NCBI RefSeq assembly: GCF_000144695.1
Contig: NC_014378.1
Coordinates: 656,781 to 720,780, forward strand
Direction: 5' to 3'
DNA from: Acetohalobium arabaticum DSM 5501
GTDB taxonomy: Bacteria; Bacillota; Halanaerobiia; Halobacteroidales; Acetohalobiaceae
Length of the DNA: 64,000 nucleotides
Shown here: one piece after another, positions 38,167-54,630 of the stretch
How positions within the stretch are numbered: position 1 is the first letter of the stretch
How the letters are laid out: every line of letters begins with the position of its first letter
Translations under genes and position numbers: made by a program
Notes under the pieces: generated by a model
Databases searched by the model: none
What the model was told of the DNA's origin: nothing
What the model saw: the letters and a program-made list of their open reading frames with translations, nothing else

Positions 38167-39505
38167 ATGGTATTTGTGCTCAATAAAGACAAAACTCCAC
38201 TTAATCCTTGTCATAACGGTAAGGCTAAGTGGTTATTAGATAATAATTATGCTGTAGTGCATAAGATACAACCTTTTACAATCAGACTTAAAAAGAAAGT
38301 TACTAATCCTAATTTGAAGGACTATACACTTAAAATTGACCCTGGGAGTAAAACAACAGGGTTAGCTATCAATAACGGCAGTCAAGTAGCGTTTTTAGCT
38401 AATTTGCATCATCGAGCTGATACTATTAAGCAAAACTTACAAACCCATAGAGAACATAGGCGGTTTAGACGCTCTCAATTGAAGTATAGAGAAAAACGTT
38501 TTGATAATCGTAAGCGGGGAGATAACTGGTTACCACCGAGTGTTGATTCTATAGTTAATAACATTAAAACCTGGGTGCAGCGGTTAAAGAAGTTATGTCC
38601 TATTAGCAAAGTAGTAGTTGAAATGGTAAGATTTGATACCCAGAAAATGCAAAATCCTGAGATCGAAGGTATAGAGTATCAGCAAGGCACATTACGAAGG
38701 TTACAATGTAAGAGAATATTTACTTTATAAGCACAATCACACTTGCCAATACTGTGGGGGCGAAAGTGGTGATCCAGTTTTGGAAGTTGAGCATAAAATT
38801 CCTAGCTCACGTGGCGGTACAGATAGTATCAAAAACCTTACTCTATCATGCAAGACTTGTAATCAGGATAAAGATAATCGAACACTTAAAGAATGGTTAC
38901 AGGACTTAAAAGAGCAGGATTTCCGCAAAAAGCTACCTAAAGTTCGCTACAAAAATGTAAAGCAGATACTTGAAAGTAAAGTAGATATTTCACTTAAAGA
39001 TGCAGGTAGAGTCAATAGTTATCGTTATAAGTTGTTAGATCAGCTTAAAAGCATTTGTAGCAATATTGAAACATCAACTGGTGCTAAGACTAAGTATAAC
39101 CGCAATCAAGTAGCTGAATTAGAGAAAACTCATTATTTTGATGCGTTATGTGTTGGGACTGCTAAGCAAGAATATAGTTTTCAAAAAGGGTTTAAAGTGT
39201 TAAGTATTAAAGCAACAGGTCGAGGTACAAGACAGCGTACTTTGCTTGATAAGTATGGGTTTCCAAGAGCTTATCGTTCACGTAATAAGTATGTAGATAA
39301 CTTTAAAACAGGCGATTTAGTTAAAGCAGTAATTCCTAAAGGTAAAAACAAGGGAGTTTACTTTGCTAGAGTATCTACTCGCAAAAGTGGTTACTTTAGG
39401 TTAGATTGTTTTAATGGCAGTAAAGTTGATGGAGTAAATAGTAAATATTTAAACTTACTACAACGAGGAGCTGGTTATAGCTATAGTTTTGAAGATATAG
39501 CTTAA
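38167..39505 (+). pseudogene. iscB: IscB nuclease, broken by one frameshift
   Basis: Two frames together encode a full IscB, the OMEGA nuclease related to Cas9. Frame one (38167-38730) has the PLMP-like TPLNP start, RuvC-I LKIDPGSKTTGLAI, the Arg-rich bridge helix HRRFRRSQLKYREKR and RuvC-II VVVEMVRFDT. Near 38691-38693 the frame shifts by one base. Frame two continues YEGYNVREYLLYKHNHTCQYCGG, then the HNH site EVEHKIPSSRGGTDSIKNL with CxxC pairs, and RuvC-III HYFDALCVG. All catalytic residues are present, so only the frameshift inactivates it, unless a programmed shift or sequencing error explains it. The PID-like end has GTRQRTLLDKYGFPRAY. Confidence 0.85.
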
Positions 39506-39956: not shown

Positions 39957-42164
39957 ATGTTAAATGCAATTACGGGCCGAAAAGAAAATTTATATAGTCT
40001 GTTTAAAAAAGAATTAAAACAGGCCCAGGAAGTAAAAATAATTGTAGCCTTTTTAAAAGAATCAGGAGTTAAATTAATTGTTGATGATTTAAAGAAGCAG
40101 GCATTAAAAAATGGTGCTGAGATAAAGATTATAACTGGCAAATACCTTAATATTACTGAACCTTCTGCTCTGTATTTACTTAAAGATAAATTGGGAGATA
40201 TGGTTGATCTGAGATTTTATGATAAAGATTCCATTTCTTTTCATCCGAAAGCCTACTTTTTGAAGAAGGAAGAAGAAAAAGTCTTATTTATTGGGTCATC
40301 CAATATCTCTGCTTCAGCCTTTACCAATGGAGTAGAGTGGAATTATCGAATGATAGATGAGGTTGATGAGGTAGCTTATGAAAGATTTGAACAGGAATTT
40401 GACCGTATTTTTGCCGAAGAGTCTACTGTGATTGATGAAGAAGAACTTAGAAATTATGCCAGCAGCTGGAGTAAACCCCAGGTAGAGATAGTAGAAGAGA
40501 AAGAAGAACCGGAAAGACCGGAACCACGGGGTGCTCAGATTGAAGCGCTGCATGAATTGAAGCTGGCCCGGAAGGAAGGAGTCAAAAAGGGGCTGGTAGT
40601 GGCAGCTACAGGAGTAGGGAAGACATATTTAGTTGCTTTTGATTCAATAAAGTTTGATAAAGTTCTGTTTGTAGCCCATCGGGAGGAAATTTTGCGGCAG
40701 ACAAAGAAGACTTATGAAAGCATAGAACCTGAGTTGGAAGTAACCTTCTTTACTGGTGAAGAAAAGGATGCTAGTGGTGATATAGTTTTAGCCAGTGTCC
40801 AGAAGCTGCGTAGAGAAGAGTATCTGGCAGAAGATCACTTTCTTCCGGATGAGTTTGACTATATTGTAGTTGATGAGTTTCACCACGCGGGAGCTGACAG
40901 TTATCTGAAAGTGCTTGATTACTTTGAACCGGAGTTTCTGCTGGGTAAGAAGGATTTGGAGAAGAAGCTTTCTACTCATAAGCGGGCTGATTTAATTTTA
41001 AGGAATTACCGGAATTTAGCCGGTCAGCGGACGTTGGGTTTCTGTGCTTCTATCAATCATGCCCGCTATATGGCGGAGTATTTTAATGAGAATAACATTA
41101 GAGCAGTCTGTGTCCACAGCTCAAGTGATCAGAGAGAGTACTTTATGGAACGAAAAGAAGCAGTGGAGAAGCTAGAAGCCGGGGATATTGATGTTATTTT
41201 TGCTGTGGATATCTTCAATGAAGGAGTTGATATTCCAGCCCTGGATACAGTATTATTTCTTCGGCCCACTGAATCCTATGTGGTCTTCCTCCAGCAGTTA
41301 GGCCGAGGATTGCGGGAGTATAAGGAGAAAGAGTATTTGAAGGTGCTTGATTTTATTGGCAATTACAAAAGAGCTCATTATGTTCCATTTCTTTTAGCTG
41401 GAGAGAATCCAATGAAGAAAGATAAGCAAGATTTAAAGAAAATAGATGATTTTGATTATCCCAATGGCTGCCAAATTTCCTTTGATTTTGAAGTTATTGA
41501 TCTCTTCAATGAGATACAGAAGCATGATTCATTCCGGGACCGAATGGAAGAGGAGTACTATAGGTTAAAGAAGTATTTAGGTCGGCGGCCGCTGCGGAAG
41601 GATATTCAGGAAGGAGTCGATATTGATACAAAGGAGTATATGCGCCGTACTTATCACGGAGAAAAAGGGTATTTGCGATTTTTAGCCAGTATTGATGAAT
41701 TGAAAGAAGGAGAAGAAGAGTGGCTGGATATAATAGTGGAGAAATTTTTATATAGATTAGAAAGGACAAGTATGAATAAATCTTATAAAATACCTACTCT
41801 TTTAGCTTTATTGGAAGACGGCAAACTGCAGCCAGAAGTTGATATTGAAGAGGTAGGGGAAAGCTTTATGAATTATTATTATAATTATAAGTTACACCAG
41901 AAGGATTTAAATAACAAGAAGCATGAAGGCTGGGAAGAATGGAGTAGAGAAGAGTTTAAAAAGGCAGCATTAGAAAATCCAGTTCATTTCTTAACTAAGG
42001 GGAGAGAAAGTAAGTTCTTTTCCTATGATGAAATCAATGAACAGTTTAGATTGAGTGAAGATTTAGTTCCTTATTTAAATGAAGATTTAGCAGAACACTT
42101 CAAAGATATTTTAGAATATAGAAGTAGAAGATATTTCAGCCGCAGGTTTAAGGAGGAAGGATAA
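39957..42164 (+). CDS. PLD-domain DEAH helicase missing helicase motif III
   Basis: A 735-aa superfamily 2 protein. Residues 1-160 are a phospholipase D-like domain with one HKD motif (HPKAYFLKKEEEKVLFIGSSNIS, given here in part: FHPKAYF and IGSSNIS). The helicase part has Walker A VAATGVGKTYL near residue 220, DEFH box YIVVDEFHHAG near 300 and motif VI QQLGRGLREY near 450. Between FEPEFLLG and KKDLEKKLSTHKRA the usual motif III (TATPER) and the following roughly 50-60 residues are absent, in frame. A DUF3427-like C-terminal part follows. It is coupled to the MazG-like gene. Confidence 0.88.
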   Translation: MLNAITGRKENLYSLFKKELKQAQEVKIIVAFLKESGVKLIVDDLKKQALKNGAEIKIITGKYLNITEPSALYLLKDKLGDMVDLRFYDKDSISFHPKAYFLKKEEEKVLFIGSSNISASAFTNGVEWNYRMIDEVDEVAYERFEQEFDRIFAEESTVIDEEELRNYASSWSKPQVEIVEEKEEPERPEPRGAQIEALHELKLARKEGVKKGLVVAATGVGKTYLVAFDSIKFDKVLFVAHREEILRQTKKTYESIEPELEVTFFTGEEKDASGDIVLASVQKLRREEYLAEDHFLPDEFDYIVVDEFHHAGADSYLKVLDYFEPEFLLGKKDLEKKLSTHKRADLILRNYRNLAGQRTLGFCASINHARYMAEYFNENNIRAVCVHSSSDQREYFMERKEAVEKLEAGDIDVIFAVDIFNEGVDIPALDTVLFLRPTESYVVFLQQLGRGLREYKEKEYLKVLDFIGNYKRAHYVPFLLAGENPMKKDKQDLKKIDDFDYPNGCQISFDFEVIDLFNEIQKHDSFRDRMEEEYYRLKKYLGRRPLRKDIQEGVDIDTKEYMRRTYHGEKGYLRFLASIDELKEGEEEWLDIIVEKFLYRLERTSMNKSYKIPTLLALLEDGKLQPEVDIEEVGESFMNYYYNYKLHQKDLNNKKHEGWEEWSREEFKKAALENPVHFLTKGRESKFFSYDEINEQFRLSEDLVPYLNEDLAEHFKDILEYRSRRYFSRRFKEEG

Positions 42165-42476
42165 ATGAAAGAGTATGATAAATTGATTCGCGATAGGATT
42201 CCAGAGATTATTAAAGAGGACGGTAAAGAGTATGAAGTTGAAGTAATGGAGAAGGAAGAGTATAAGGAGTATCTGAAAGAGAAGCTGCTGGAAGAAGCCA
42301 AAGAATATATAGAGTCAGAAGAAGTAGAGGAATTGGCTGATGTGTTGGAAGTGATAAAGACAATTGCAGAGGTTAAAGAGATTGGGTTTGAAGAGATAGA
42401 GGAGATGAGACAGAAGAAGGCGGATAAACGGGGTAGGTTTAAGGAGAGATTGAAGTTATTGAGGGTTTATGATTGA
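42165..42476 (+). CDS. MazG/HisE-like nucleotide pyrophosphohydrolase
   Basis: A 103-aa all-alpha NTP pyrophosphohydrolase-like protein: YDKLIRDRIPEIIKEDGK, KLLEEAKEYIESEEVEELADVLEVI (the EExxE..D metal-binding helices). This subfamily is often annotated as phosphoribosyl-ATP pyrophosphohydrolase-like. Its ATG directly follows the stop of the PLD-helicase, so the two are co-translated; such pairs occur in accessory regions. The substrate is unknown. Confidence 0.85.
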   Translation: MKEYDKLIRDRIPEIIKEDGKEYEVEVMEKEEYKEYLKEKLLEEAKEYIESEEVEELADVLEVIKTIAEVKEIGFEEIEEMRQKKADKRGRFKERLKLLRVYD

Positions 42477-42750: not shown

Positions 42751-45700
42751 ATGAATATGAAAAACTCAGGAAATGATGTAGTTTATATTCCTGATTATTT
42801 AAAAAATAAATCTATACCTAAAAATAATGAAAATCCTTTATGTAGAATATCTAAAACTTATGAACTTAATCATTTTATAGATTTAACATTAGATATATTA
42901 AAAACAGTTTATAAAAAAGAAAAAACTTTATTTTGGAATTTGGTAAAACAGATAGCTTTTTATGGAGTTAGATTTAAAAATAAGTTATCAAAATATAATT
43001 ATGTTCATTCTAATGATATATCAGTTTTATATACAAAACAAAGAGATGAGTTTATTGATTATAATATGTTGGATAATTATGTTTTTAAAAATCAGTTAGT
43101 ATCTTTTGGATTGATTAAAATACAAGATATGGATGGGGTTTCATTAGAAGCTATTGAAAATATAAAGCCAAAGGATATAAAGGTAGATTTAATAAAGCAA
43201 TTTATTAAAGAGCAAGGATTTGAGTTAGTTACTCCAGAAGAATATTGTAATTATACTTATAAAATAAGTAACAAGAGTAAAATAAGGAACGAGGTTAGGG
43301 AAAATAGAAAACAATTAAATTTTAATCTTTCATTTGATTCAGATATTAAAACATTATATGATGAAATAAATTGTTATAAGGAAAATAATTTTGATATCGA
43401 AGATAGACTTTATTTTATTCAATTATTAATGAAAAAATTAAAAGAAGTAGATGTAAATAGATTAATAAAAAATATTATTTTAAATAAAAATGGAGATTTA
43501 TTATTAAATGAAATTAAAGATTACTTGTCTGTGGTAGGTATTAATATTTCTGTTAAAGAATTACAAAATAATATAAAACAACTTTTGAAAAAAAGTTCAA
43601 AATTTAATTTAATTGATTTTAATGAAAAGACAGCAATTATATTAAGTGATTATATAAAAGATTTATTAAATGATGGACCATTATGTTTAGTTGATTTAAA
43701 AATGAAATTAGAGTTGGAGGATAATTGGTATTTTTGTTTGTTTTCAGCATTAAAAAAAATAAATAATATTGGGCTTAATAAAAAAAGAAAAATTTGTTTA
43801 ACAAATAATTTAAATGCTCGCATTCGATTTTGTATTAATTCAGCTTTAACTAAAATTAAAAGACTTAAAAATAAAAAAATAGATAATTTAATAAAAAATC
43901 TTTTCATAAATTTGGAAACTCCTTTACTACTAAAAGAAATAAAAAAATATTTGATGTTTTTAAATATAGATTTATCGTTAGAAGAAATTGATGAATTGTT
44001 AAGAAATAATGCAGATTTTAAGTTAATTGATGTAAATAAATGGAGTTTAGATTCATGGGATGAATATCCTGAATTTAATGAAGAATTCAAGTCTACTTGG
44101 GAACAAATTTTATCTAGTTTTCCTGAAGAAAATAGGGAACGAGATATAGATATATTAAATAAGAGAATATTTAGTAATGATTATACTTTAGAAAAGTTAG
44201 GAGAAGAACATAGTATAAGTAGGCAGAGAGTTAGGCAGTTAGAAGAAAGTGGAATGAGAAAATTAGTTCATTATACAAGAATTAAATATATAAAACCTTT
44301 TTTAAGTTTAATTGAAAACTTATTCATTGATAGAATAATAATATCTTATAATGAATTTGATGAACTAAGAAAAAAATATTTTTTATCACTAAATATAAAT
44401 GAAGTAATTAATTTCTTTAATACAATGTTAAAAAGTGAGAAGAAGGGAGTTAGTTTTTCTAATATAATATCAGAAGTTGAATATAAGTTAAGAAATATTG
44501 AGGATAAATTTATAAGTAAAAGACCATTAAAGAATATACTAGGTTTAATTAATAAAATTATAAATGAGTATTTTGAAAATAATGAAGTTAAATATGAAAA
44601 ATTATCAAAATTATTGCGAAGAAATGGTATTAAAGATAAGAAAGTTATTGATGAATTATTAAAGGTAAATAACGATACTTTAAAAATTGAAAATATGGTC
44701 TATTTTATAAATAATGCAGGAAAAGATGATAAATGTGCTCTTATTTTAAAAGAGTTTTTTTCTAATGGAGTTAATATATCTAAAAAAAATGATGAAATTA
44801 AAGCATTATTAAATAAGTATTTTCCTTTAGATTTTAAAGAAAGTAGTAATAGAAGTATAACTGGAAATATACAAAGGAGTAATAAAATAATCAATTGGGG
44901 TAGAGGGGATTATATTCATATAGATAATGTTCATGTTATAAAAGATGATTTAATACAAGTGAAAAATTGGTTAAAAGAAAGATTAAATAGTGATTTGATT
45001 GAGATTTGGGCCAATGCTGCTTACAGGGAGTTTAAGCAATATCTAAAAGATTTAGGTATTCCTAATCAACATGCCTTATATTCTCTTTTAGAATTTTATT
45101 TTGGAGATGAATTTCATTTTTATAAATCACCGAGGATACTCCCGTTATCAAGTAAAGGGACAGAACCTAAACAAAATTCGGATGTTATTGAGGAATATTT
45201 ATTAAATGTAGGAAGGAAAGTGTCAAAAGGAGAATTAAAGAAATATTTTATAGAAGAAATGGGATGGGAAGATTATACCTTAAGTAATCATTTATCTCAG
45301 GCTGGTAATGTGATTGAATGTAACGATGGAATATATGTACATAGAGAGTATTTACAAATTGATATAGAAAAATTAAATCAAATTGCTGATGATTTGGATA
45401 ATATTTTAGAACAGAATAATTCTATTATATCTGTTTCTTTGATTTATGATAATAAACGAGTTACAGTTATGTCAGCAAATATAAGTAGTGAGAAAGAATT
45501 ATATAATTATTTAGAGACTATTCATTCTGATAGATTTTCATTTCCATTTTATCCAGTAATTGCTACCAAAAATTATAGTTCAATTCAGAGTAAGAAAGAT
45601 ATTTTTGAAGAATACTTTTCAAAATGTAATACCAGTATTTTTTATAATGAATTGAAAAATAAATTTAAAAAATTAGGTTTTGAATTAAGAGAAATATACT

Positions 45701-46221
45701 ATGGAGTTAGTCGTAGTGAAGATATTATTCCTTTAAAAAAGGGACATGAGTATATATATAAGGATAAATTAGCTTTAACTGAGGAGAAAAAGAAGTATTT
45801 GCAAGATTTAGTATTAGAGTTATTAGATGCTTCACAAAGACATTACATTAGTATTTCACGGACTATCTTAAATAATAAAAATCGAAGCAAATTACCTAAT
45901 TTGGGTAATAGCGTTAGTTGGAGAGAAGACTTATTAGTTTATTTCTTATCAAACATGAATAAATTTTTATTGTTGGGGACTAAAGATTATGTAGTTATGA
46001 AAAAAAATAATAAATTAGAGATAAAAGATGATAGTGATTTTATAGCTTATATTTTGAAAAATAAATTTAATGGTGCTACTAAGCTTAAAAAGATAGAAAA
46101 TTTTTTATCAAGGATTAATTTTATTTCTCATGATTTAGCAAAATCACATACAGAAGAGGTATCTTTATATGAAATTGATAATGGGGAAATTATTCATAAA
46201 GATTTGTTGGATAGAAAGTAG
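42751..46221 (+). CDS. large multi-wHTH protein with sigma-region-4-like helix-turn-helix
   Basis: A 1156-aa protein of no family that I can name. At about residues 475-515 it has a sigma-70 region-4-like helix-turn-helix (YTLEKLGEEHSISRQRVRQL). Around it are repeated modules of the form L-x-EI-K-x-YL with a small winged-helix pattern, at about residues 248, 308 and 388 (LLLNEIKDYLSVVGI, PLLLKEIKKYLMFLNI) and again near 811 and 949 (VSKGELKKYFIEEMG, IFYNELKNKFKKLGF). This suggests a long array of DNA-binding domains. Composition is AT-rich, unlike the flanking core genes. It is the first gene of a tight co-directional cluster (next start 8 bases after the stop). Confidence 0.8.
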   Translation: MNMKNSGNDVVYIPDYLKNKSIPKNNENPLCRISKTYELNHFIDLTLDILKTVYKKEKTLFWNLVKQIAFYGVRFKNKLSKYNYVHSNDISVLYTKQRDEFIDYNMLDNYVFKNQLVSFGLIKIQDMDGVSLEAIENIKPKDIKVDLIKQFIKEQGFELVTPEEYCNYTYKISNKSKIRNEVRENRKQLNFNLSFDSDIKTLYDEINCYKENNFDIEDRLYFIQLLMKKLKEVDVNRLIKNIILNKNGDLLLNEIKDYLSVVGINISVKELQNNIKQLLKKSSKFNLIDFNEKTAIILSDYIKDLLNDGPLCLVDLKMKLELEDNWYFCLFSALKKINNIGLNKKRKICLTNNLNARIRFCINSALTKIKRLKNKKIDNLIKNLFINLETPLLLKEIKKYLMFLNIDLSLEEIDELLRNNADFKLIDVNKWSLDSWDEYPEFNEEFKSTWEQILSSFPEENRERDIDILNKRIFSNDYTLEKLGEEHSISRQRVRQLEESGMRKLVHYTRIKYIKPFLSLIENLFIDRIIISYNEFDELRKKYFLSLNINEVINFFNTMLKSEKKGVSFSNIISEVEYKLRNIEDKFISKRPLKNILGLINKIINEYFENNEVKYEKLSKLLRRNGIKDKKVIDELLKVNNDTLKIENMVYFINNAGKDDKCALILKEFFSNGVNISKKNDEIKALLNKYFPLDFKESSNRSITGNIQRSNKIINWGRGDYIHIDNVHVIKDDLIQVKNWLKERLNSDLIEIWANAAYREFKQYLKDLGIPNQHALYSLLEFYFGDEFHFYKSPRILPLSSKGTEPKQNSDVIEEYLLNVGRKVSKGELKKYFIEEMGWEDYTLSNHLSQAGNVIECNDGIYVHREYLQIDIEKLNQIADDLDNILEQNNSIISVSLIYDNKRVTVMSANISSEKELYNYLETIHSDRFSFPFYPVIATKNYSSIQSKKDIFEEYFSKCNTSIFYNELKNKFKKLGFELREIYYGVSRSEDIIPLKKGHEYIYKDKLALTEEKKKYLQDLVLELLDASQRHYISISRTILNNKNRSKLPNLGNSVSWREDLLVYFLSNMNKFLLLGTKDYVVMKKNNKLEIKDDSDFIAYILKNKFNGATKLKKIENFLSRINFISHDLAKSHTEEVSLYEIDNGEIIHKDLLDRK

Positions 46222-46229
46222 GGGTATTA

Positions 46230-48329
46230 ATGCTTAAAGACTTAAATTTAAAGTCGGTGTATGATAGTTCTGAATGTAATTTAATTACAAAATTATTTAT
46301 TCCCTTATTATCTGAATCATTTTTATACAAAAGAGGGGTTGGTTATTTTACTTCTGGATGGTTGAGATTAGCGGCTAAGGGCTTAGATAGATTAGCGGAA
46401 AACGGTGGTAAAGTAAAGTTGGTTACATCACCACATTTAGAAACAAATGATTGGAAATCATTTGTTCGAGGAAATAAAGCGCAAAAAGATGATTTATTGT
46501 ATAAATCTTTAAGAAAAAAAGTTAGTAATTTAGGAGATAGTTTAGCTCAAAATACTTTGACAGCTTTAGCTTGGTTGATAGCTGATGGGATTTTAGAAGT
46601 AAAGTTTGCTATTCCTAACAATAATCTAGGAGATTTTCATGATAAATTTGCTATTTTTGAAGATTATCATGGAGATAAAGTAGCTATTCATGGATCATAT
46701 AATGATTCTATTAAAGGTAATTTGAATGGTGAAAGCTTTTCAGTTTTTAAATCATGGGTTAAGGGACAGAGTAATTATGTAGAACATCATATTGATAGAT
46801 TTGAGAATATATATAGTGACCAAAATGATTTTTTTCAAATTTATAATATGCCACAAGCTATTAGAAATGAAATAGTTAAATTAAGAAAAAATAAAAATCG
46901 TCCTTATAACCTTCCGGATAATCATAATTTAATAAAAAAACGTGGTATTGAGATTCCTAAAAAAATAAATTTATATCCTTTTCAAAAAGAGGCGTTAAAA
47001 AAATGGTTTGATAATGAATGTCATGGAATATTTGAAATGGCTACTGGAACTGGTAAAACTATTACTTCTTTGTCTTGTGCTGTTAAATTGTTTAAAAAAG
47101 TTAAACAATTAATTACTATTATCGCTGTGCCTTTTGATCATTTAGTTGACCAATGGAAGGAAGATGTAATTAATTTTGGATTTAATCCTATATTGTGTAG
47201 AGGAAGTTATAGAAATTGGCTTGGTAAATTACAATCTAAGCTTAGAGACTATGAAATGGGGTTTCGAAATAGCTTGTGCATTATAGTAACTCATAAGACT
47301 GCTGCTTCCGATAGATTTATCAAATTAGTAAACGATTGCAAAGAGGATATATTATTTATTGGTGATGAAATGCATTATTTAGGAGCTGAAAACTTAAGAA
47401 AGTCATTGAGGCAGAACTATAATTATCGGTTAGGATTATCTGCTACTCCTGATCGATGGTTTGATGAAGAAGGGACAGAATATATCAAAGAATATTTTGG
47501 TCAAATAGCGAAACGCTATTCTTTAAGAGAGGCAATTAATAATGGTTTTTTAACTCCTTATCAATATATTCCTCATATTGTTGAATTAAATGATAATGAA
47601 TTAGAGGAGTATAATGAGTTAACTCATAAAATAGTTAAAGTAAGAAATTCTGTAAATGATGAAGATAATGAAGTTTTAACTAGATTATTAGTTAAAAGAG
47701 CTGATATTATTGCTAAAGCTAAAAACAAAAAGCGAGTCTTAAAGGAATTGTTAGAAAAGCAAATACTTAATAAAGGAAAAGAAAGTCTTTCTCATACTAT
47801 AGTATATTGTGGTAGGGGAGAACATAAAGAAGTTTTGAAGTTGTTATCTAATTTAGGTATTCAAGCTCATGAATTTGTACATACTGTACCTACTAAAGAG
47901 AGACAGCGAATTTTAGATTATTTTGATGAAGGAGATATTCAAATCTTAGTGGCAATGAAGTGCCTTGATGAAGGAGTAAATATCCCCGCTACGAAAGAGG
48001 CGTTTTTTTTAGCTAGCACTAGTAATCCACGAGAGTTTGTACAGCGTAGAGGAAGAATCTTAAGAAGGTATTCTGGTAAACATGAAGCATTGGTTCATGA
48101 TTTTATTGTTTTACCTCAGACTGATAAATTAGACCATTTATCAGAAGATATGTTAAAAGATTATAAATCAATAGTAAAAAAAGAAATGCCCAGATTTGCT
48201 GAATTTTCTTTAGAAGCTAAAAATACTTTTCAAGCAAGAGATAAAATATATTCTATTTTAAAAAGGCTTAACTTGTTACATTTATTCGATAAAAAACCTT
48301 GGGAAGTATACGAAGAATATGATTTATAA
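46230..48329 (+). CDS. PLD/DEAH helicase of the seven-gene cluster
   Basis: A 699-aa SF2 protein. The N-terminal part is phospholipase D-like: YKRGVGYFTSGWLR, and a single HKD site in FHDKFAIFEDYHGDKVAIHGSYNDS (HxK, then GSxN). The helicase has Walker A MATGTGKTITS at about residue 270, DExH as LFIGDEMHYLG, motif III LGLSATPDRW and motif VI QRRGRILRRY. Unlike the 39957 helicase, all motifs are present. The PLD and helicase pairing is common in restriction-type systems; it may be a nuclease-translocase. Confidence 0.88.
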   Translation: MLKDLNLKSVYDSSECNLITKLFIPLLSESFLYKRGVGYFTSGWLRLAAKGLDRLAENGGKVKLVTSPHLETNDWKSFVRGNKAQKDDLLYKSLRKKVSNLGDSLAQNTLTALAWLIADGILEVKFAIPNNNLGDFHDKFAIFEDYHGDKVAIHGSYNDSIKGNLNGESFSVFKSWVKGQSNYVEHHIDRFENIYSDQNDFFQIYNMPQAIRNEIVKLRKNKNRPYNLPDNHNLIKKRGIEIPKKINLYPFQKEALKKWFDNECHGIFEMATGTGKTITSLSCAVKLFKKVKQLITIIAVPFDHLVDQWKEDVINFGFNPILCRGSYRNWLGKLQSKLRDYEMGFRNSLCIIVTHKTAASDRFIKLVNDCKEDILFIGDEMHYLGAENLRKSLRQNYNYRLGLSATPDRWFDEEGTEYIKEYFGQIAKRYSLREAINNGFLTPYQYIPHIVELNDNELEEYNELTHKIVKVRNSVNDEDNEVLTRLLVKRADIIAKAKNKKRVLKELLEKQILNKGKESLSHTIVYCGRGEHKEVLKLLSNLGIQAHEFVHTVPTKERQRILDYFDEGDIQILVAMKCLDEGVNIPATKEAFFLASTSNPREFVQRRGRILRRYSGKHEALVHDFIVLPQTDKLDHLSEDMLKDYKSIVKKEMPRFAEFSLEAKNTFQARDKIYSILKRLNLLHLFDKKPWEVYEEYDL

Positions 48330-48345
48330 AAGTGGAGGGAGATTA

Positions 48346-48513
48346 ATGGAAGAAGAGATTCATCAAAGAGTTGTAGATAAAATTAATGAATTACCAATTA
48401 CTGAGAGAGAATTAGCATTAAGAGCTTTGGAATTATCATTTCGAACTAATTCTTCTACTGTAGCTGAAAAATTATTTAGTGAAATAAATGAGATTATGGA
48501 TAAGGAGGAATAA
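48346..48513 (+). CDS. small helical protein of the seven-gene cluster
   Basis: A 55-aa protein with ATG at 48346, 7 bases after GTGGAGGGAG; an upstream in-frame ATG at 48319 lacks a site and was rejected. The sequence is charged and helical (IHQRVVDKINELPITERELALRA). It lies 3 bases before the start of the DndD-like gene and probably is a small subunit of the same complex. No family is recognised. Confidence 0.65.
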   Translation: MEEEIHQRVVDKINELPITERELALRALELSFRTNSSTVAEKLFSEINEIMDKEE

Positions 48514-48516
48514 AAG

Positions 48517-50571
48517 TTGAAAATAAAAGATATAGAACTCTGTAATTTCAAGCAATATTATGGAAAACAAAATATTGAATTTGCAGGTTATGATACAGAT
48601 AGCTCCGAAAATGTAACAGTAGTTTATGGAGAGAATGGAAGAGGAAAAACTAGTTTATATAGAGCACTTATGTTTGCATTATATGGTGATAAGTTTTTAG
48701 ACCAAGATAAGAATTTGCAAGGTTCTAGAAATAAAGATTTAAACCCTGATTTATATATAGTTAATATCAATGCTTTAAAAGAAGATTTTGAGGCAGAAAA
48801 TGATGGAGTAGAAGCATATGTAAAGGTTAATTTTATTAATGATAATATTGAATATTCATTATACAGAAGTATGTTTGGGATTCAAAATAGTCAAGATGAA
48901 ATTTTTGAAGAGGATGGTAAAGTAAAACTAACTGTTAAAAATGAAGATGGAAATACTAAAGTAATAGAAGATAAGGAAAAAATTGAACAAAAAGTTAATT
49001 CTATCTTAGATGGTAGAGTAAAGAGTTATTTTCTATTTGATGGTGAAAGGATTGAGCGATTAACGAAGGCTACTAAGGAACAAAAAGAAGAAGTGGCTGG
49101 AGGAATAAAAAATTTGTTGAAAATTGATGAATTAAATTGTTCTATTGATGCTTTGGAAAAGTTGAAAAAAAAGATTAGAAAAGAATTGAAAAAGATTTCG
49201 ACAGGAGATTATAGAAAGTCAATTGAAAAATTAGATAAATTGGATAATAAAAAAGAAACTTTAGAGAAAGATTTGGATAGTTTATCAGAAGAATTAAAGT
49301 ATGCCAGGAAACAAGAGAAAGATATAGAGAATGAATTAGCAAAATTTGATGAATATAAAGATTTGATTTACGAAAGAAAGTCATTAAAGAAAAGAAAAGA
49401 TGAATTAACTAATGACCGAGAGGAATTATCAGATAAAATTCGAAATTTTAATAATAAAGCTATTATGTTGTTAGCCGATGATATATTGGAGAACGTTTTT
49501 GCTGATATTAATAATAAAGATATTAGTGGAATTGATATTAAAGTTAAGAAAAAAGTAGTAGATAGAATTTTAAATCAGATGAAATGTATTTGTGGTACTA
49601 ATTTAAATTTAGATAGTAAGGAGCATAAAGCTTTAAAGGAATGGGCTAATGAGCCAGAAGAAAATGTAGTTGATGATAGGATAATGGATTTTCGAGATGA
49701 GTTAATTAAAGCACGGGAATATATTTCTAATAATAAAGATAACTGTGATGAGTTATTAGGTAGCTTTTCTAAATTAGATGGTAGTATAGAAGAAATAAAT
49801 TCACGTTTAGAACAATTAGATGCTGAAATTGATGATGTTTCCGATGAAGAATTTGAAGAAAAAAAAGAATATAGAAAAAAATTAATTAAAGATATAAGTA
49901 ACTTTGAACAGGAGATAGAAAATAAAGAGAAAAAAATATCTGAAGTAGAAAATAAAATTCAACAAGCAGAGAATAAAAGAAAGAATCTTGAAAAACAGCA
50001 GAATATTAAAAACGAATTTAGTAAGAAGTTAGAATTAACTGAAAATACTTTAGCTAAATTAGAAAAGATAAAGAACCTCTTTATTTCAGAGGTTAAAGAC
50101 GATTTAGAAGAAGAAGCTACCGCAATATTTAAAAGATTGATTGACTCTGCTACTAAAGATACATTTAAAAGAATTATTGTTAATGATGATTATAGTTTAG
50201 AAATTCTTGATTGGAATAACCGGCCCTTTTTAGCTAATATTTCAGCTGGACAGCGTCAAGTAATGTCGTTAGCTTTTATAACTGCTTTGGCTAAAATTGC
50301 AGGAGGTAAGGATATATTAGAGGTGCCATTATTTATGGATACACCTTTTGGGAGGCTTTCAGGAAATCATAGAGATAATTTATTAAAAGAGATTCCTGAA
50401 TTATCACCACAATGGATTTTGTTAGCTACTGATACTGAGTTTACTAGGGTAGAAGCTGAGGAATTACGTAAGTCAGGCAACTGGGGGAAAGTTTATAAAT
50501 TAGAATTAATAGAGGATGGTTATACAAAACTAAAAGAAGTTAGTGTAAATCAATTTAAACCTAAAAGATAA
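48517..50571 (+). CDS. DndD-like SMC/Rad50-type ATPase
   Basis: A 684-aa ATPase. Walker A GENGRGKTSLYRALMFALYGD (in part) near residue 40, a long coiled coil over about residues 200-560 with a hinge carrying KCICGTNL, and a C-terminal ABC head with signature FLANISAGQRQVMSLAF and Walker B VPLFMDTPFGRLSG. This is the layout of DndD of the DNA phosphorothioation system. Here no dndA, dndB, dndC or dndE gene is present in the window, so it may act in another modification or restriction complex. TTG start with AAGGAGG. Confidence 0.85.
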   Translation: MKIKDIELCNFKQYYGKQNIEFAGYDTDSSENVTVVYGENGRGKTSLYRALMFALYGDKFLDQDKNLQGSRNKDLNPDLYIVNINALKEDFEAENDGVEAYVKVNFINDNIEYSLYRSMFGIQNSQDEIFEEDGKVKLTVKNEDGNTKVIEDKEKIEQKVNSILDGRVKSYFLFDGERIERLTKATKEQKEEVAGGIKNLLKIDELNCSIDALEKLKKKIRKELKKISTGDYRKSIEKLDKLDNKKETLEKDLDSLSEELKYARKQEKDIENELAKFDEYKDLIYERKSLKKRKDELTNDREELSDKIRNFNNKAIMLLADDILENVFADINNKDISGIDIKVKKKVVDRILNQMKCICGTNLNLDSKEHKALKEWANEPEENVVDDRIMDFRDELIKAREYISNNKDNCDELLGSFSKLDGSIEEINSRLEQLDAEIDDVSDEEFEEKKEYRKKLIKDISNFEQEIENKEKKISEVENKIQQAENKRKNLEKQQNIKNEFSKKLELTENTLAKLEKIKNLFISEVKDDLEEEATAIFKRLIDSATKDTFKRIIVNDDYSLEILDWNNRPFLANISAGQRQVMSLAFITALAKIAGGKDILEVPLFMDTPFGRLSGNHRDNLLKEIPELSPQWILLATDTEFTRVEAEELRKSGNWGKVYKLELIEDGYTKLKEVSVNQFKPKR

Positions 50572-50598
50572 ATATTTTTTATTAGTAGGAGGAAAAAT

Positions 50599-51078
50599 AT
50601 GAGATTACAGGGAGATATAAGAGTTCAAATAGAAGAAAAATATAATGATATTTATAAAGATTTAACTCAAGATAATGGTATAAGAAAGCCAGTTTTTGAT
50701 AGTTATGGTAGGGTATTTGTTTTGTGTTCTTGTTTAGGATTTGAATATAATAAAAAAATACCTTTAGATAAATCTAAAAAATTATTTTGGACAGATAGTT
50801 TAAATAATTATAATCATGCTATTACAATTTTATTTTCTATTGCTATGTTAAATAAAGGAGAGGTTAATTATAAGATATTATCTAATGATGAAAAAATAAT
50901 TAAGATAACAGAAAAATATGCTAATGGCGGAATGAAAGTATTAATTGATGAAGTATTAGAGCCATATATTAAAGAAGATGATGAAAAATTTTATTTAGAT
51001 TATAGTAATTCTTCGTTTTTAGAAAAAGAAGTTTTAAGTTTTATAAGATATGAAATGAAATCTTCGCCTTTTGATTAG
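50599..51078 (+). CDS. protein resembling Dnd system-associated protein 4
   Basis: A 159-aa protein. The arrangement RKPVFDSYGRVFVLCSCLGFEYNKK, then NKGEVNYKILSNDEKIIKITEKYANGGMKVLIDEVLE (given in part: EKYANGGMKVL) resembles what I remember of the small Dnd-associated family. I could not check this. It starts 27 bases after the DndD-like gene with a AGGAGG site. A terminator follows. Confidence 0.5.
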   Translation: MRLQGDIRVQIEEKYNDIYKDLTQDNGIRKPVFDSYGRVFVLCSCLGFEYNKKIPLDKSKKLFWTDSLNNYNHAITILFSIAMLNKGEVNYKILSNDEKIIKITEKYANGGMKVLIDEVLEPYIKEDDEKFYLDYSNSSFLEKEVLSFIRYEMKSSPFD

Positions 51079-51089
51079 AATTTTTAAGG

Positions 51090-51118
51090 GTTTAAGAGTT
51101 ATTCTTAAACTCTTTTTT
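51090..51118 (+). terminator. rho-independent terminator inside the cluster
   Basis: GTTTAAGA-gttat-TCTTAAAC hairpin and a T run. It splits the cluster into a five-gene and a two-gene transcript. Confidence 0.75.
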
Positions 51119-51130
51119 TATTTTGGATTA

Positions 51131-51159
51131 TTGATCACTTGAAATCATTTTGATATAAT
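51131..51159 (+). promoter_or_regulatory. promoter of the radical SAM and Hsp90-like genes
   Basis: TTGATC (51131-51136), a 17-base spacer, TATAAT (51154-51159) with an upstream TGA (extended -10). It lies 46 bases before the radical SAM GTG start. Confidence 0.7.
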
Positions 51160-51204
51160 TTTATTAGTTAGTTTATTTATTAGTTAAGCTAGGAGTGAAT
51201 TATA

Positions 51205-53262
51205 GTGGTAAATATTCTTTTATTAGAACCAGATTACAAAAATAAATATCCGCCATTAGGATTAATGAAGATTTCTTCTTATCATAAAGAAAAAGGTGAT
51301 AGTGTAACATTTGCTAAAGGTCAGTTAAGAGATGATGAAAAAGAAAATGATAATTGGGATAGAATTTATATTACTACTTTATTTACTTTTGAATGGGATA
51401 AGACAATTGAAACTATTGAATATGCGAAATCCTTAATAGAAGATAAGGATAATATTTTTATCGGAGGAATTTTGGCAACACTTAAACCTAATGAAATTGA
51501 AGATAAAACTGGAATAAAACCAATTACACATCGACTTGATAATGATAATGAGGAAGCGAAGAGACTAATTGGTTATGATAATGACCATATAATTGATAAT
51601 TGTACACCTGATTATGAGATATTAGATGATATTGAATACGAATATCCTTATAATGATGCATACTTTGCTTATATGACTCGTGGATGTGGCATGAATTGTG
51701 AATTTTGTGCAGTACAAACACTTGAACCTGAATATGTTCCTTTTATTTCAATTAAAGAACAGATAAAGAAGATTAATCAACAACACGGGCCCAAAAGAAA
51801 CTTGTTATTAATGGATAATAATGTTTTAAGGTCTCCAAAATTTAATGATATAGTAGAAGAAATTAAAGAATTAGGTTTTGCAAGGGGAGCTACATATACA
51901 TATGAAAATGATAAAGGTAAAGTTATAACTCAAAAGAGATATGTAGACTTTAATCAGGGGTTAGATGCAAATCTTTTAACTGAAGAAAAAGCTAAAAAAT
52001 TAAGTGAGTTAGCAATTAGACCAGCAAGAATAGCATTTGACCATATTGAAGATAGAGATAAATATGAAAGAGCAATTAGAAGATGTGCTAAATATGGAAT
52101 TAAGTATTTTTCTAATTATATGTTATATAATGCAGATGATTTTCAAGGAAAAGGAAGTCAATATAAAGCAGATTCACCAGAAGATTTATATAAAAGATTA
52201 AAAATAACTATGGAATTACAGAATGATATTAATAAAGATAAAACAGAAGACAAGAAAGTTAAAATCTATTCTTTTCCTATGAAGTATATACCTCTAGAAG
52301 ATACAGACCGTAGTTATATAGGACCCAAATGGAATGCAAAATTTTTAAGAGCAATACAAGTGATGTTACTACCTTGCAGTGGTGTAGGTGGAGTGAGTGA
52401 AGAATTTTTTAGAAAAGCTTTTGGAGAGGATTTAAAAGAATATAAACTAAATTTAAGAATGCCTGAAAGTATATTAATGAGTAGAGGCAAATTTCTTCAA
52501 AGAGATGATGAATCTGAAAATGAATTGGAGAAAAGGTTGAATGAAGACCGTGGAGCATTAGTAAAAAGCAAATATTATAAAAAATGGAAAAGATTATATA
52601 AGAGCATGAAAAATGAAGATAAGTTATTAGAGGTAATTGGAGATAATAAATTTGAAGCTGATGGTTATTTTGAAATTGAAAATAATAAGATTAAAAAAAT
52701 ATATTTACATTATTTAAGCAAATCTAGATTTTTAACATTATTAAATAAGTTAGTTAGTAATAATTTAGAAAAGGATATAAATTTAGTCTTTGATTATGTT
52801 ACGGATGAATTTCCATTTTATATTGAAAGAATTGCAAAATATATTCATGATAAACGAATTTCACATAGGAAACTTAGAGGATATATAAAAGTTTTTGGAA
52901 AGTTTGGAGTCAAACTCATTTTGAAAAATTGGGTTAAAAATGATTTAGAAAATAAATATTTATTAAGTAGATTAGAAAAAGCTATGATGCATATTGGACA
53001 AGAGTTTATTAATATTAGCAAATTACGTGCGATGAAACGTTATATAGATTCTGGTTGTCTAAATAAATCAGAAATTGCATTAGTGAAAACATATATTAAG
53101 GATTTAAATGAAGAAGGCATAACTAGAATATTAAAAGATTATTTTAGTGATTTTAAAAGACAATTAAAATTTAATAATAGAGATGAACCTGGCTTCGAAA
53201 AAATCGAGAAGAAAATAGAAGTTTTGACTGCAGAACTTGGAGAACAGTTGTCGTTATTTTAG
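51205..53262 (+). CDS. radical SAM protein with N-terminal cobalamin-type domain
   Basis: A 685-aa protein. The N-terminal 130 residues look like a B12-binding domain of the BchE/Elp3-like class (ILLLEPDYKNKYPPLGLMKIS, then NIFIGGILATLKPNEIE). The radical SAM domain has TRGCGMNCEFCAVQ (CxxxCxxC) at about residue 165, plus later conserved RIAFDHIEDRDKYERAI and PMKYIPLEDTDRSYIG. The C-terminal 300 residues are unknown and AT-rich. Radical SAM enzymes in this class often methylate unreactive carbons. GTG start with TAGGAGTG; transcribed from its own promoter. Confidence 0.83.
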   Translation: MVNILLLEPDYKNKYPPLGLMKISSYHKEKGDSVTFAKGQLRDDEKENDNWDRIYITTLFTFEWDKTIETIEYAKSLIEDKDNIFIGGILATLKPNEIEDKTGIKPITHRLDNDNEEAKRLIGYDNDHIIDNCTPDYEILDDIEYEYPYNDAYFAYMTRGCGMNCEFCAVQTLEPEYVPFISIKEQIKKINQQHGPKRNLLLMDNNVLRSPKFNDIVEEIKELGFARGATYTYENDKGKVITQKRYVDFNQGLDANLLTEEKAKKLSELAIRPARIAFDHIEDRDKYERAIRRCAKYGIKYFSNYMLYNADDFQGKGSQYKADSPEDLYKRLKITMELQNDINKDKTEDKKVKIYSFPMKYIPLEDTDRSYIGPKWNAKFLRAIQVMLLPCSGVGGVSEEFFRKAFGEDLKEYKLNLRMPESILMSRGKFLQRDDESENELEKRLNEDRGALVKSKYYKKWKRLYKSMKNEDKLLEVIGDNKFEADGYFEIENNKIKKIYLHYLSKSRFLTLLNKLVSNNLEKDINLVFDYVTDEFPFYIERIAKYIHDKRISHRKLRGYIKVFGKFGVKLILKNWVKNDLENKYLLSRLEKAMMHIGQEFINISKLRAMKRYIDSGCLNKSEIALVKTYIKDLNEEGITRILKDYFSDFKRQLKFNNRDEPGFEKIEKKIEVLTAELGEQLSLF

Positions 53263-53283
53263 CTTAAGGAGGAAGGGATAATA

Positions 53284-54630
53284 GTGTTAGATGATATTAT
53301 TATAGGAAAACATACATTGGAATCATTAACTGCTGGTATGTACTCTGATGCTAAAGTGATTTATAGAGAGTATATTCAAAATAGTGTTGATGCAATAGAT
53401 GAAGCAATTAATTCAGGAATAACTGATAAATGTGAGGCTAAGATTGATATTGAAATAAATAAGAATAATTCTAAAATCACGATAAAAGATAATGGAACGG
53501 GAATTTCTAGTAAAAATGCTGTTAAAAAATTATTAGATATAGGAAATTCAACTAAAAATCCTGAAAGTACAATAGGATTTAGAGGTATAGGTAGGTTAGC
53601 TGGATTAAGTTATTGTCAAAAGTTAAAGTTTGTTACTTCGTATAAAGGTGAAGATAAGAAAACTATAGTGTCGTTTGATGCTAATAAATTAGAGAAACTT
53701 TTAATTCCAGGAGAATATACTGATTATGATTTATTAACGGTAATTAAAGAAGTAACTAAATCTAAAAAACACAATGAAAAAACAGACAAACATTATTTTA
53801 AAGTTATCTTAGAAGAGGTAAATAATATTGACCATATTTTGGATTATAATAGAATAAAAAACTATTTATCTCAAGTTGCTCCAATACCTTTTGATGAACA
53901 AAAGTTTCCTTGGGCAAAAGATATTAAGAATAAATTAGATTTGAAAGGCATTTTGCTTGATGAATATAATGTAATTTTAAGCGATGGAAATAAAAAAGAA
54001 AAGCTGTTTAAATTAAATTCAAATGAATTTGTTGCGGATATTAGAAAGAAAATATCTGATAATATTAAAGATGTTGAAATAAAGTTTATTGAAGATGACT
54101 TTAATAACTTAATAGCTTTTTTATGGTACACTAAATCTAATTTTTATGGAACTATGGTTGATAGAAAAAAGAAAGGAATAAGGTTAAGAAAGGGAAATAT
54201 TCAAATTGGAGATAGAAGTACATTGAATAAAATATTTAAAGAAGATAGATTTAATGGTTGGTTCCAAGGAGAAGTACATGTTTTTAATGAAAATCTTATT
54301 CCAAATGCTCGTAGAGATGATTTTGAAAAAAATTTAGATTATACACAATTGATTAGCCAATTAAAGGAAATTGGAAATAGTCTTTCTAAAGACATAAGAA
54401 AGATGTCTAAAGAACGAAATAATTTAAAGAAAAAGAAGCAATTATATAAGAAGTTTGATTATTTGAATGATAAGATAGAAAAAGTAAGTGACTTTAAAAT
54501 TTTAGATTTAGTTGATGATTTAAGTCAAAAGGAAAAAGAAGTTTTGAATAAAGTATTTAAGATAGTTGATGATAATTATGAACAAGAAAAAGTAGATGAA
54601 TTTGTAAAAAATATAGTTGAAAATTTTTAG
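53284..54630 (+). CDS. Hsp90-like (GHKL) ATPase
   Basis: A 448-aa GHKL ATPase. N box YREYIQNSVDAID (E..N), G1 IKDNGTGIS, G2 GFRGIGRLAG: the ATP lid and Bergerat fold are complete. The rest is a middle-type domain and a charged C-terminal helix. It follows the radical SAM gene with AAGGAGG before a GTG start. Hsp90-like ATPases appear in several anti-phage systems; here it could switch or assemble the complex. It is the last gene of the cluster. Confidence 0.85.
   Translation: MLDDIIIGKHTLESLTAGMYSDAKVIYREYIQNSVDAIDEAINSGITDKCEAKIDIEINKNNSKITIKDNGTGISSKNAVKKLLDIGNSTKNPESTIGFRGIGRLAGLSYCQKLKFVTSYKGEDKKTIVSFDANKLEKLLIPGEYTDYDLLTVIKEVTKSKKHNEKTDKHYFKVILEEVNNIDHILDYNRIKNYLSQVAPIPFDEQKFPWAKDIKNKLDLKGILLDEYNVILSDGNKKEKLFKLNSNEFVADIRKKISDNIKDVEIKFIEDDFNNLIAFLWYTKSNFYGTMVDRKKKGIRLRKGNIQIGDRSTLNKIFKEDRFNGWFQGEVHVFNENLIPNARRDDFEKNLDYTQLISQLKEIGNSLSKDIRKMSKERNNLKKKKQLYKKFDYLNDKIEKVSDFKILDLVDDLSQKEKEVLNKVFKIVDDNYEQEKVDEFVKNIVENF

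Follow-up and report, generated by a model that had tools for sequence, protein, structure and literature searches.

A cluster of seven AT-rich genes in Acetohalobium arabaticum raises the question of what genes related to DNA phosphorothioation and restriction do in a genome that encodes no phosphorothioation, and whether a radical SAM (rSAM) enzyme and an Hsp90-like ATPase at the end of the cluster take over the modification step. The stretch that we analysed, here called the window, is 64,000 nucleotides long and belongs to the single 2,469,596-base contig of this genome. All seven open reading frames (ORFs) lie in the order originally predicted on the forward strand between 42751 and 54630, and the low GC content ascribed to them was borne out (0.21-0.29, versus about 0.33-0.44 across most of the remaining window). 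The original prediction saw in them an undescribed defence or DNA-modification system; the defence-type character of the cluster stands, but profile scores, gene order and motifs identify genes 2 to 5 as the PbeABCD set, which is hence already known. It was described by Xiong et al. 2019 (PMC6459918) and is equated by Rakesh et al. 2024 (PMC10853773) with their CxC ABC-ATPase/DndE system, both papers being cited here from excerpts. What is new, as judged from comparison of gene neighbourhoods, is the company that this core keeps, namely a conserved giant protein and a B12-fold rSAM enzyme beside PbeABCD in distant phyla. Our main reading, to which we assign a probability of about 0.45, is that this Pbe system is independent of phosphorothioate and that the rSAM enzyme marks self DNA in place of the usual modification arm, by a chemistry that we infer.

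The PbeABCD core and its flanking genes

The features discussed below are as follows.

39957-42164, forward: PLD/DEAD helicase, SauUSI/RadD-like, possible extra member (homologues upstream of the giant gene)
42165-42476, forward: 103-residue protein, possible extra member, MazG-like by eye (YDKLIRDRIPEII)
42751-46221, forward: giant protein of 1156 residues, sigma-70 region 4 helix-turn-helix (HTH) and tandem winged helices (Pfam, structural model, fold search)
46230-48329, forward: PbeA, HKD nuclease and SF2 helicase (PDLC02707, 807 bits; TIGR04095, 499 bits; motifs)
48346-48513, forward: PbeB-like small protein of 55 residues (location and size only; GGAGGG site upstream)
48517-50571, forward: PbeC, CxC ABC ATPase, DndD-related (PDLC02730, 750 bits; best DndD model, 203 bits)
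50599-51078, forward: putative PbeD, DndE-like and dnd_assoc_4-like (TIGR04062, 45.8 bits, cut-off 74.25; place and size)
51086-51114 and 51131-51159, forward: terminator-like hairpin and promoter-like site between genes 5 and 6 (sequence matches)
51205-53262, forward: rSAM enzyme, B12 fold, proposed modification enzyme (CGMNCEFC at residues 161-168; Pfam, 32.9 bits; model)
53284-54630, forward: Hsp90-like (GHKL) ATPase, partner of the rSAM enzyme (HATPase_c_3, 57.4 bits; Hsp90/HtpG profile matches)

The PLD/DEAH helicase, the 55-residue protein, the DndD-like ATPase and the relative of Dnd-associated protein 4 that had been predicted were each recovered, the latter two with scores below the cut-offs of the Dnd families; PbeC, the sole DndD-type match of the genome, reaches 166.1 bits against TIGR03185 (cut-off 245.85). 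PbeA keeps the motifs HDKFAIFED, GSYN, GTGKT, DEMH, SAT and QRRGRILR, and PbeC has a Walker A motif, a CIC at residue 357 (CxC hook) and an ISAGQ signature. Homologues of PbeD, for which a PADLOC scan gave no match with the window protein, occur in two related loci (L015 and L016), the second of which also holds a 21-bit homologue of the 55-residue protein. The absence of canonical phosphorothioation genes, predicted for the window, extends to the whole genome: DndC had no match anywhere in it (E <= 1e-3), and SspD taken from an Ssp operon next to Pbe genes matched nothing but ferredoxin-type stretches, through its residues 449-536. The genome thus does not encode phosphorothioation. Together with the DndD score below cut-off, this led us to reject canonical Dnd and Ssp as identities for the cluster. 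No DGQHR proteins were found in the genome either.

The giant protein was correctly described as carrying multiple winged helices and a sigma region 4-like HTH. The latter (Sigma70_r4, residues 474-505, Pfam 28.1 bits) sits before the winged-helix half of the protein, and the structural model (mean pLDDT 62.5) is reliable for the C-terminal half alone, which forms a row of winged helices. This model suggests that the protein reads or grips DNA, and we propose it as a DNA reader or scaffold; it may regulate transcription or target the complex. As a single query against genome contigs it gave no match, and a search of genomes of the phylum did find relatives; its gene precedes PbeA in nine loci (L015, L016, L046, L055, L060, L080, L095, L136 and L145).

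The extent given for the cluster appears to be too short at its upstream end, where a two-gene extension (39957-42476) was likely missed. In genome G018 (L015), homologues of the helicase (652 bits) and of the 103-residue protein (75 bits) directly precede the giant gene, so a related unit may begin at 39957. A homologue of the helicase lies directly upstream in L136 as well, and the 103-residue protein matches no Pfam family above cut-off. Alignment with the relatives in L015 and L136 revealed that the helicase of the window is missing about 60 residues bearing motif III (TATPxRxD), and its helicase function may therefore be dead. Further upstream (38167-39505), an IscB-like gene lies in two ORFs (38167-38730 and 38780-39505) and looks frameshift-broken.

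Genes 1 to 5 had been predicted to form one unit, with genes 6 and 7 under their own promoter behind a terminator. The hairpin and promoter-like site are indeed present in the 126-base gap between PbeD and the rSAM gene, but matches of both types occur at chance level across the region. Two transcription units are plausible from these signals, which would allow the rSAM enzyme and the ATPase to be expressed separately.

The radical SAM enzyme and its conserved neighbourhood

The identification of gene 6 as an rSAM enzyme draws on a Pfam match above cut-off, a radical SAM barrel fold and a CxxxCxxC motif whose cysteines (C161, C165 and C168) are invariant across 53 sequences. Its nearest folds over residues 1 to about 450 of a confident model (mean pLDDT 92.7) are AprD4, MgmA, MiaB, TsrM, CysS and OxsB, with Z scores of 17-21 and identities of 10-16% for AprD4, MgmA, TsrM, OxsB and MiaB; compared with these five, the window enzyme has an extra helical C-terminal part. 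AprD4, the best fold match, is not known to use cobalamin. The prediction of a cobalamin-type protein agrees with the B12-type fold of the model, and it is this fold that would place the enzyme in the cobalamin-dependent group. A sequence search of the PDB with the rSAM profile gave no match at E<=1e-4, and PADLOC none. The suggested role as a modifying enzyme is so far the most likely one. Gene 7 is the Hsp90-like ATPase that was predicted, with the nucleotide-binding motifs N, G1 and G2 present as EYIQN, DNGTG and GFRGIG; alignment indicates that about 55 residues found in its relatives before the C-terminal part are missing.

Whether these genes belong together was examined in relatives. 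The rSAM enzyme was found in six of 299 genomes of the phylum and the giant protein in five (one match being weak), and the three genomes with both have the same gene order. G018 (L015) encodes helicase, 103-residue protein, giant protein, PbeA, PbeC, PbeD, rSAM enzyme and ATPase, no PbeB being visible at the ORF cut-off used, and, two genes further along, a DGQHR protein similar to phosphorothioation-associated DGQHR protein 1 (TIGR04172, 182 bits, cut-off 450). G173 (L016) encodes the giant protein, PbeA-D and a short rSAM protein, without the ATPase. An rSAM alignment scan of genome contigs returned at least 517 relatives, and the best 80 of these, that is the nearest ones, were kept; many are contigs of metagenome-assembled genomes, and the rSAM proteins of L080 and L081 are identical. 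Among these best 80 of at least 517, the order giant-PbeA-PbeC-PbeD-rSAM occurs in records labelled Planctomycetota, Actinomycetota, Cryosericota and Macinerneyibacteriota, and in a Lentisphaerota contig that begins inside PbeA, the rSAM gene follows PbeA, PbeC and PbeD (L068). In all, an arrangement like that of the window is seen in L015, L016, L046, L055, L060, L080/L081 and L095, and in divergent form in L092. PbeD and the rSAM gene overlap or lie at most 7 bases apart in L016, L046, L055, L060, L080 and L095. Several Pbe-linked rSAM genes have no ATPase beside them, and two loci (L136 and L145) hold the giant and Pbe genes with no rSAM within the stretch read. The recurrence of the giant-PbeABCD-rSAM order in distant phyla speaks against these genes occurring mostly apart, and the rSAM-Pbe association is well supported by gene order.

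Defence modules and modification arms around the enzyme

The rSAM gene also accompanies modules other than Pbe. In 50 loci the ATPase gene lies directly behind it, with a median gap of -1 base. The pair closes DISARM-like operons with the order ATPase, UvrD-like protein, unknown protein, DrmA (568 bits), DrmB (176 bits), NERD-helicase, rSAM and ATPase; the rSAM gene follows a set of ParB-like protein, 136-residue protein, SNF2 helicase and ParB-like protein; and, in an ATPase-rSAM arrangement, it is found beside two proteins that we provisionally call HerA-like and NurA-like (no Pfam match). In Marinitoga camini virus 1 (L250, 4001-7827), an rSAM relative adjoins genes annotated as HerA and Rad50/Mre11-associated exonuclease. 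DGQHR proteins, which have been described in DNA systems based on phosphorothioate or deazaguanine, adjoin the rSAM gene in several loci. Automatic labelling of 85 loci, the window included under Pbe, assigned 26 to SNF2, 18 to DISARM-like, 12 to Pbe, 10 to DGQHR only, 8 to HerA-like and 11 to other partners, and in none of the 85 did more than one of the four main module types occur.

On a tree of the 85 rSAM proteins, the partner labels require 28 changes, compared with a minimum of 5 and a mean of 51.5 when shuffled, which shows repeated recruitment. The Pbe label alone requires at least 5 changes on well supported branches, and the window enzyme groups with DISARM- and SNF2-linked relatives, apart from the main Pbe-linked group. 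The cassette has thus swapped partners often, yet non-randomly. In the open-licence PMC literature, searches for an rSAM enzyme with DISARM, DrmA/DrmB, DGQHR, DndB or defence islands did not find the pairing, and no report of one linked to Pbe or DISARM was found.

In 77 of 84 rSAM loci, no ORF within 9 kb carries a DNA methyltransferase or PP-loop motif, bearing in mind that motif scans miss unusual methyltransferases. Of the seven exceptions, one is due to a chance motif in the ATPase; the remaining ORFs lie outside the named module families, some of them kilobases away. Eight DISARM-like operons with an rSAM gene (L022, L024, L025, L029, L035, L036, L042 and L049, with upstream parts L260-L267) have no methyltransferase motif even when followed upstream to the further ATPase gene; in most of these an Hsp90-like ATPase gene stands at both ends. 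The sampled phylum holds only six DISARM loci without an rSAM gene, three of them with a methyltransferase motif, which is too few for a test. We also considered phage relatives of the enzyme, a few individual records of which suggested proximity to DNA methyltransferases; across 80 viral loci there is no enrichment (6/134 near versus 24/424 far), so that the phage data lend no support to an action on DNA, and this line of evidence was dropped.

For Pbe itself, 22 full PbeA loci were drawn from 398 genomes of the phylum. Sulphur-modification genes accompany ten of them, an rSAM gene of this broad kind six, neither six and both none. Three of the six rSAM proteins are distant (L141, L146 and L147), recognised by shared motifs with profile scores of 46-109 bits. 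The chance of zero overlap between sulphur and rSAM genes is 0.012 if loci are taken as independent, which they are not fully. A full dnd set linked to the cluster in relatives was anticipated as a point against the prediction, and for the Pbe core this partly applies, as Ssp genes lie beside PbeA at 10 of the 22 loci; these loci are without the giant and rSAM genes. The ten (L132, L134, L135, L137, L139, L140, L142, L143, L144 and L148) combine PbeABCD with Ssp genes of the DUF4007/SspB type rather than Dnd genes. The scarcity of methyltransferases and the separation of sulphur and rSAM genes fit, without proving, a replacement of the modification arm. The six loci with neither arm imply that a linked mark may be dispensable for Pbe.

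Sigma-factor-like proteins of 360-485 residues are found repeatedly in loci of the Pbe, Ssp-Pbe and DISARM types (L138:13853-14953, with regions 2 and 4; L140:13861-14949; L147:3729-4838; L158; L159) and are perhaps a shared regulator.

Competing readings and known systems

Under the main reading, the rSAM enzyme, aided by the ATPase, would mark the cell's own DNA and so replace phosphorothioation or methylation. PbeC and PbeD would scan DNA, the giant protein would read target sites or keep the complex on DNA, and PbeA, with its HKD nuclease and helicase, would block or cut unmarked DNA, held in check by PbeB as a subunit; the role of the ATPase would be to load the rSAM complex or to switch its conformation. 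The rSAM and ATPase pair may in that case make a DNA mark that nobody has described. More tentatively, a mobile rSAM cassette, usually with the Hsp90-like ATPase, could write such a mark in place of methylation or phosphorothioation, repeatedly, in three or more restriction-type systems that are unrelated to one another (Pbe, DISARM-like and SNF2/ParB-like).

The best-surviving alternative, which we nevertheless consider unlikely, is that the enzyme serves defence without acting on DNA, by modifying a protein of the system such as PbeB or PbeC or by making an antiviral small molecule, with the ATPase as a sensor or chaperone. Enzymes with the nearest folds work on small molecules (AprD4, OxsB), on proteins (MgmA, RimO) and on peptides or tRNA (MiaB) rather than on DNA, an Hsp90-type partner suits protein handling, and the enzyme is common to many modules, as a general add-on would be. 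However, these modules already have nucleases and helicases as effectors, and such a role predicts neither the depletion of methyltransferases nor the separation from sulphur genes. Mere neighbourhood, with the rSAM and ATPase genes forming a stand-alone pair that often lands in defence islands while PbeABCD works, or does not, alone, we regard as improbable. The gap in the window with its terminator-like and promoter-like matches, the 11 of 85 rSAM loci labelled other and the Pbe loci with neither arm are what such a pair would leave, whereas many loci show an overlap of start and stop codons with the module upstream (PbeD, -4, -4 and -1; NERD-helicase; ParB-like), the end at which the rSAM gene stands is always the same in Pbe and in DISARM-like operons, and main module types are never combined at one locus. 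Very improbable, finally, is a decayed, inactive Pbe system orphaned by the loss of its sulphur-modification genes: the sulphur-linked loci of the phylum, the helicase at 39957 without motif III and the inactivity of solitary Pbe raised in the excerpted text of Xiong et al. (PMC6459918) would suit it, but the reading frames of Pbe, rSAM and ATPase are uninterrupted and their motifs intact, and distant phyla conserve this set without sulphur genes.

The main reading, marking of self DNA by the rSAM enzyme, bears on a gap in that literature. According to the part of PMC6459918 used here, 320 of 553 PbeAC pairs have no linked phosphorothioation genes, only 155 of these are near methyltransferases or other base-modifying genes, and whether the remaining solitary pairs work was left open. 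A conserved rSAM enzyme offers a testable partner for part of this remainder, and if it does mark DNA, a modification chemistry absent from current catalogues would be common to several defence systems.

Compared with PbeABCD, or the CxC ABC-ATPase-DndE system, as presented in the excerpts of PMC6459918 and PMC10853773, the window has the same order of PbeA, small protein, PbeC and PbeD and the same HKD-helicase and CxC ABC ATPase, with a putative DndE-like protein. It differs in that its genome has no DndCDEA or Ssp genes and in adding the giant protein in front and the rSAM enzyme and ATPase behind, none of which those excerpts mention for Pbe. The Ssp-linked Pbe loci of Bacillota have the PbeA and PbeC families of the window beside a would-be modification arm (SspBCD/SspA) and, unlike the window, are without the giant protein and the rSAM enzyme. 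The sigma region 4-like HTH of the giant protein recalls MzaA (32.2 bits) and the ATPase recalls MzaB (19 bits); an MZA identity was rejected, given cut-offs of 800 and 850 bits and no other Mza family among nine proteins scanned. The window contains no Drm protein, and no methyltransferase motif was seen in the DISARM-like operons linked to the rSAM gene; these DrmA- and DrmB-encoding operons of gut Firmicutes end, as the window cluster does, in an rSAM-ATPase pair.
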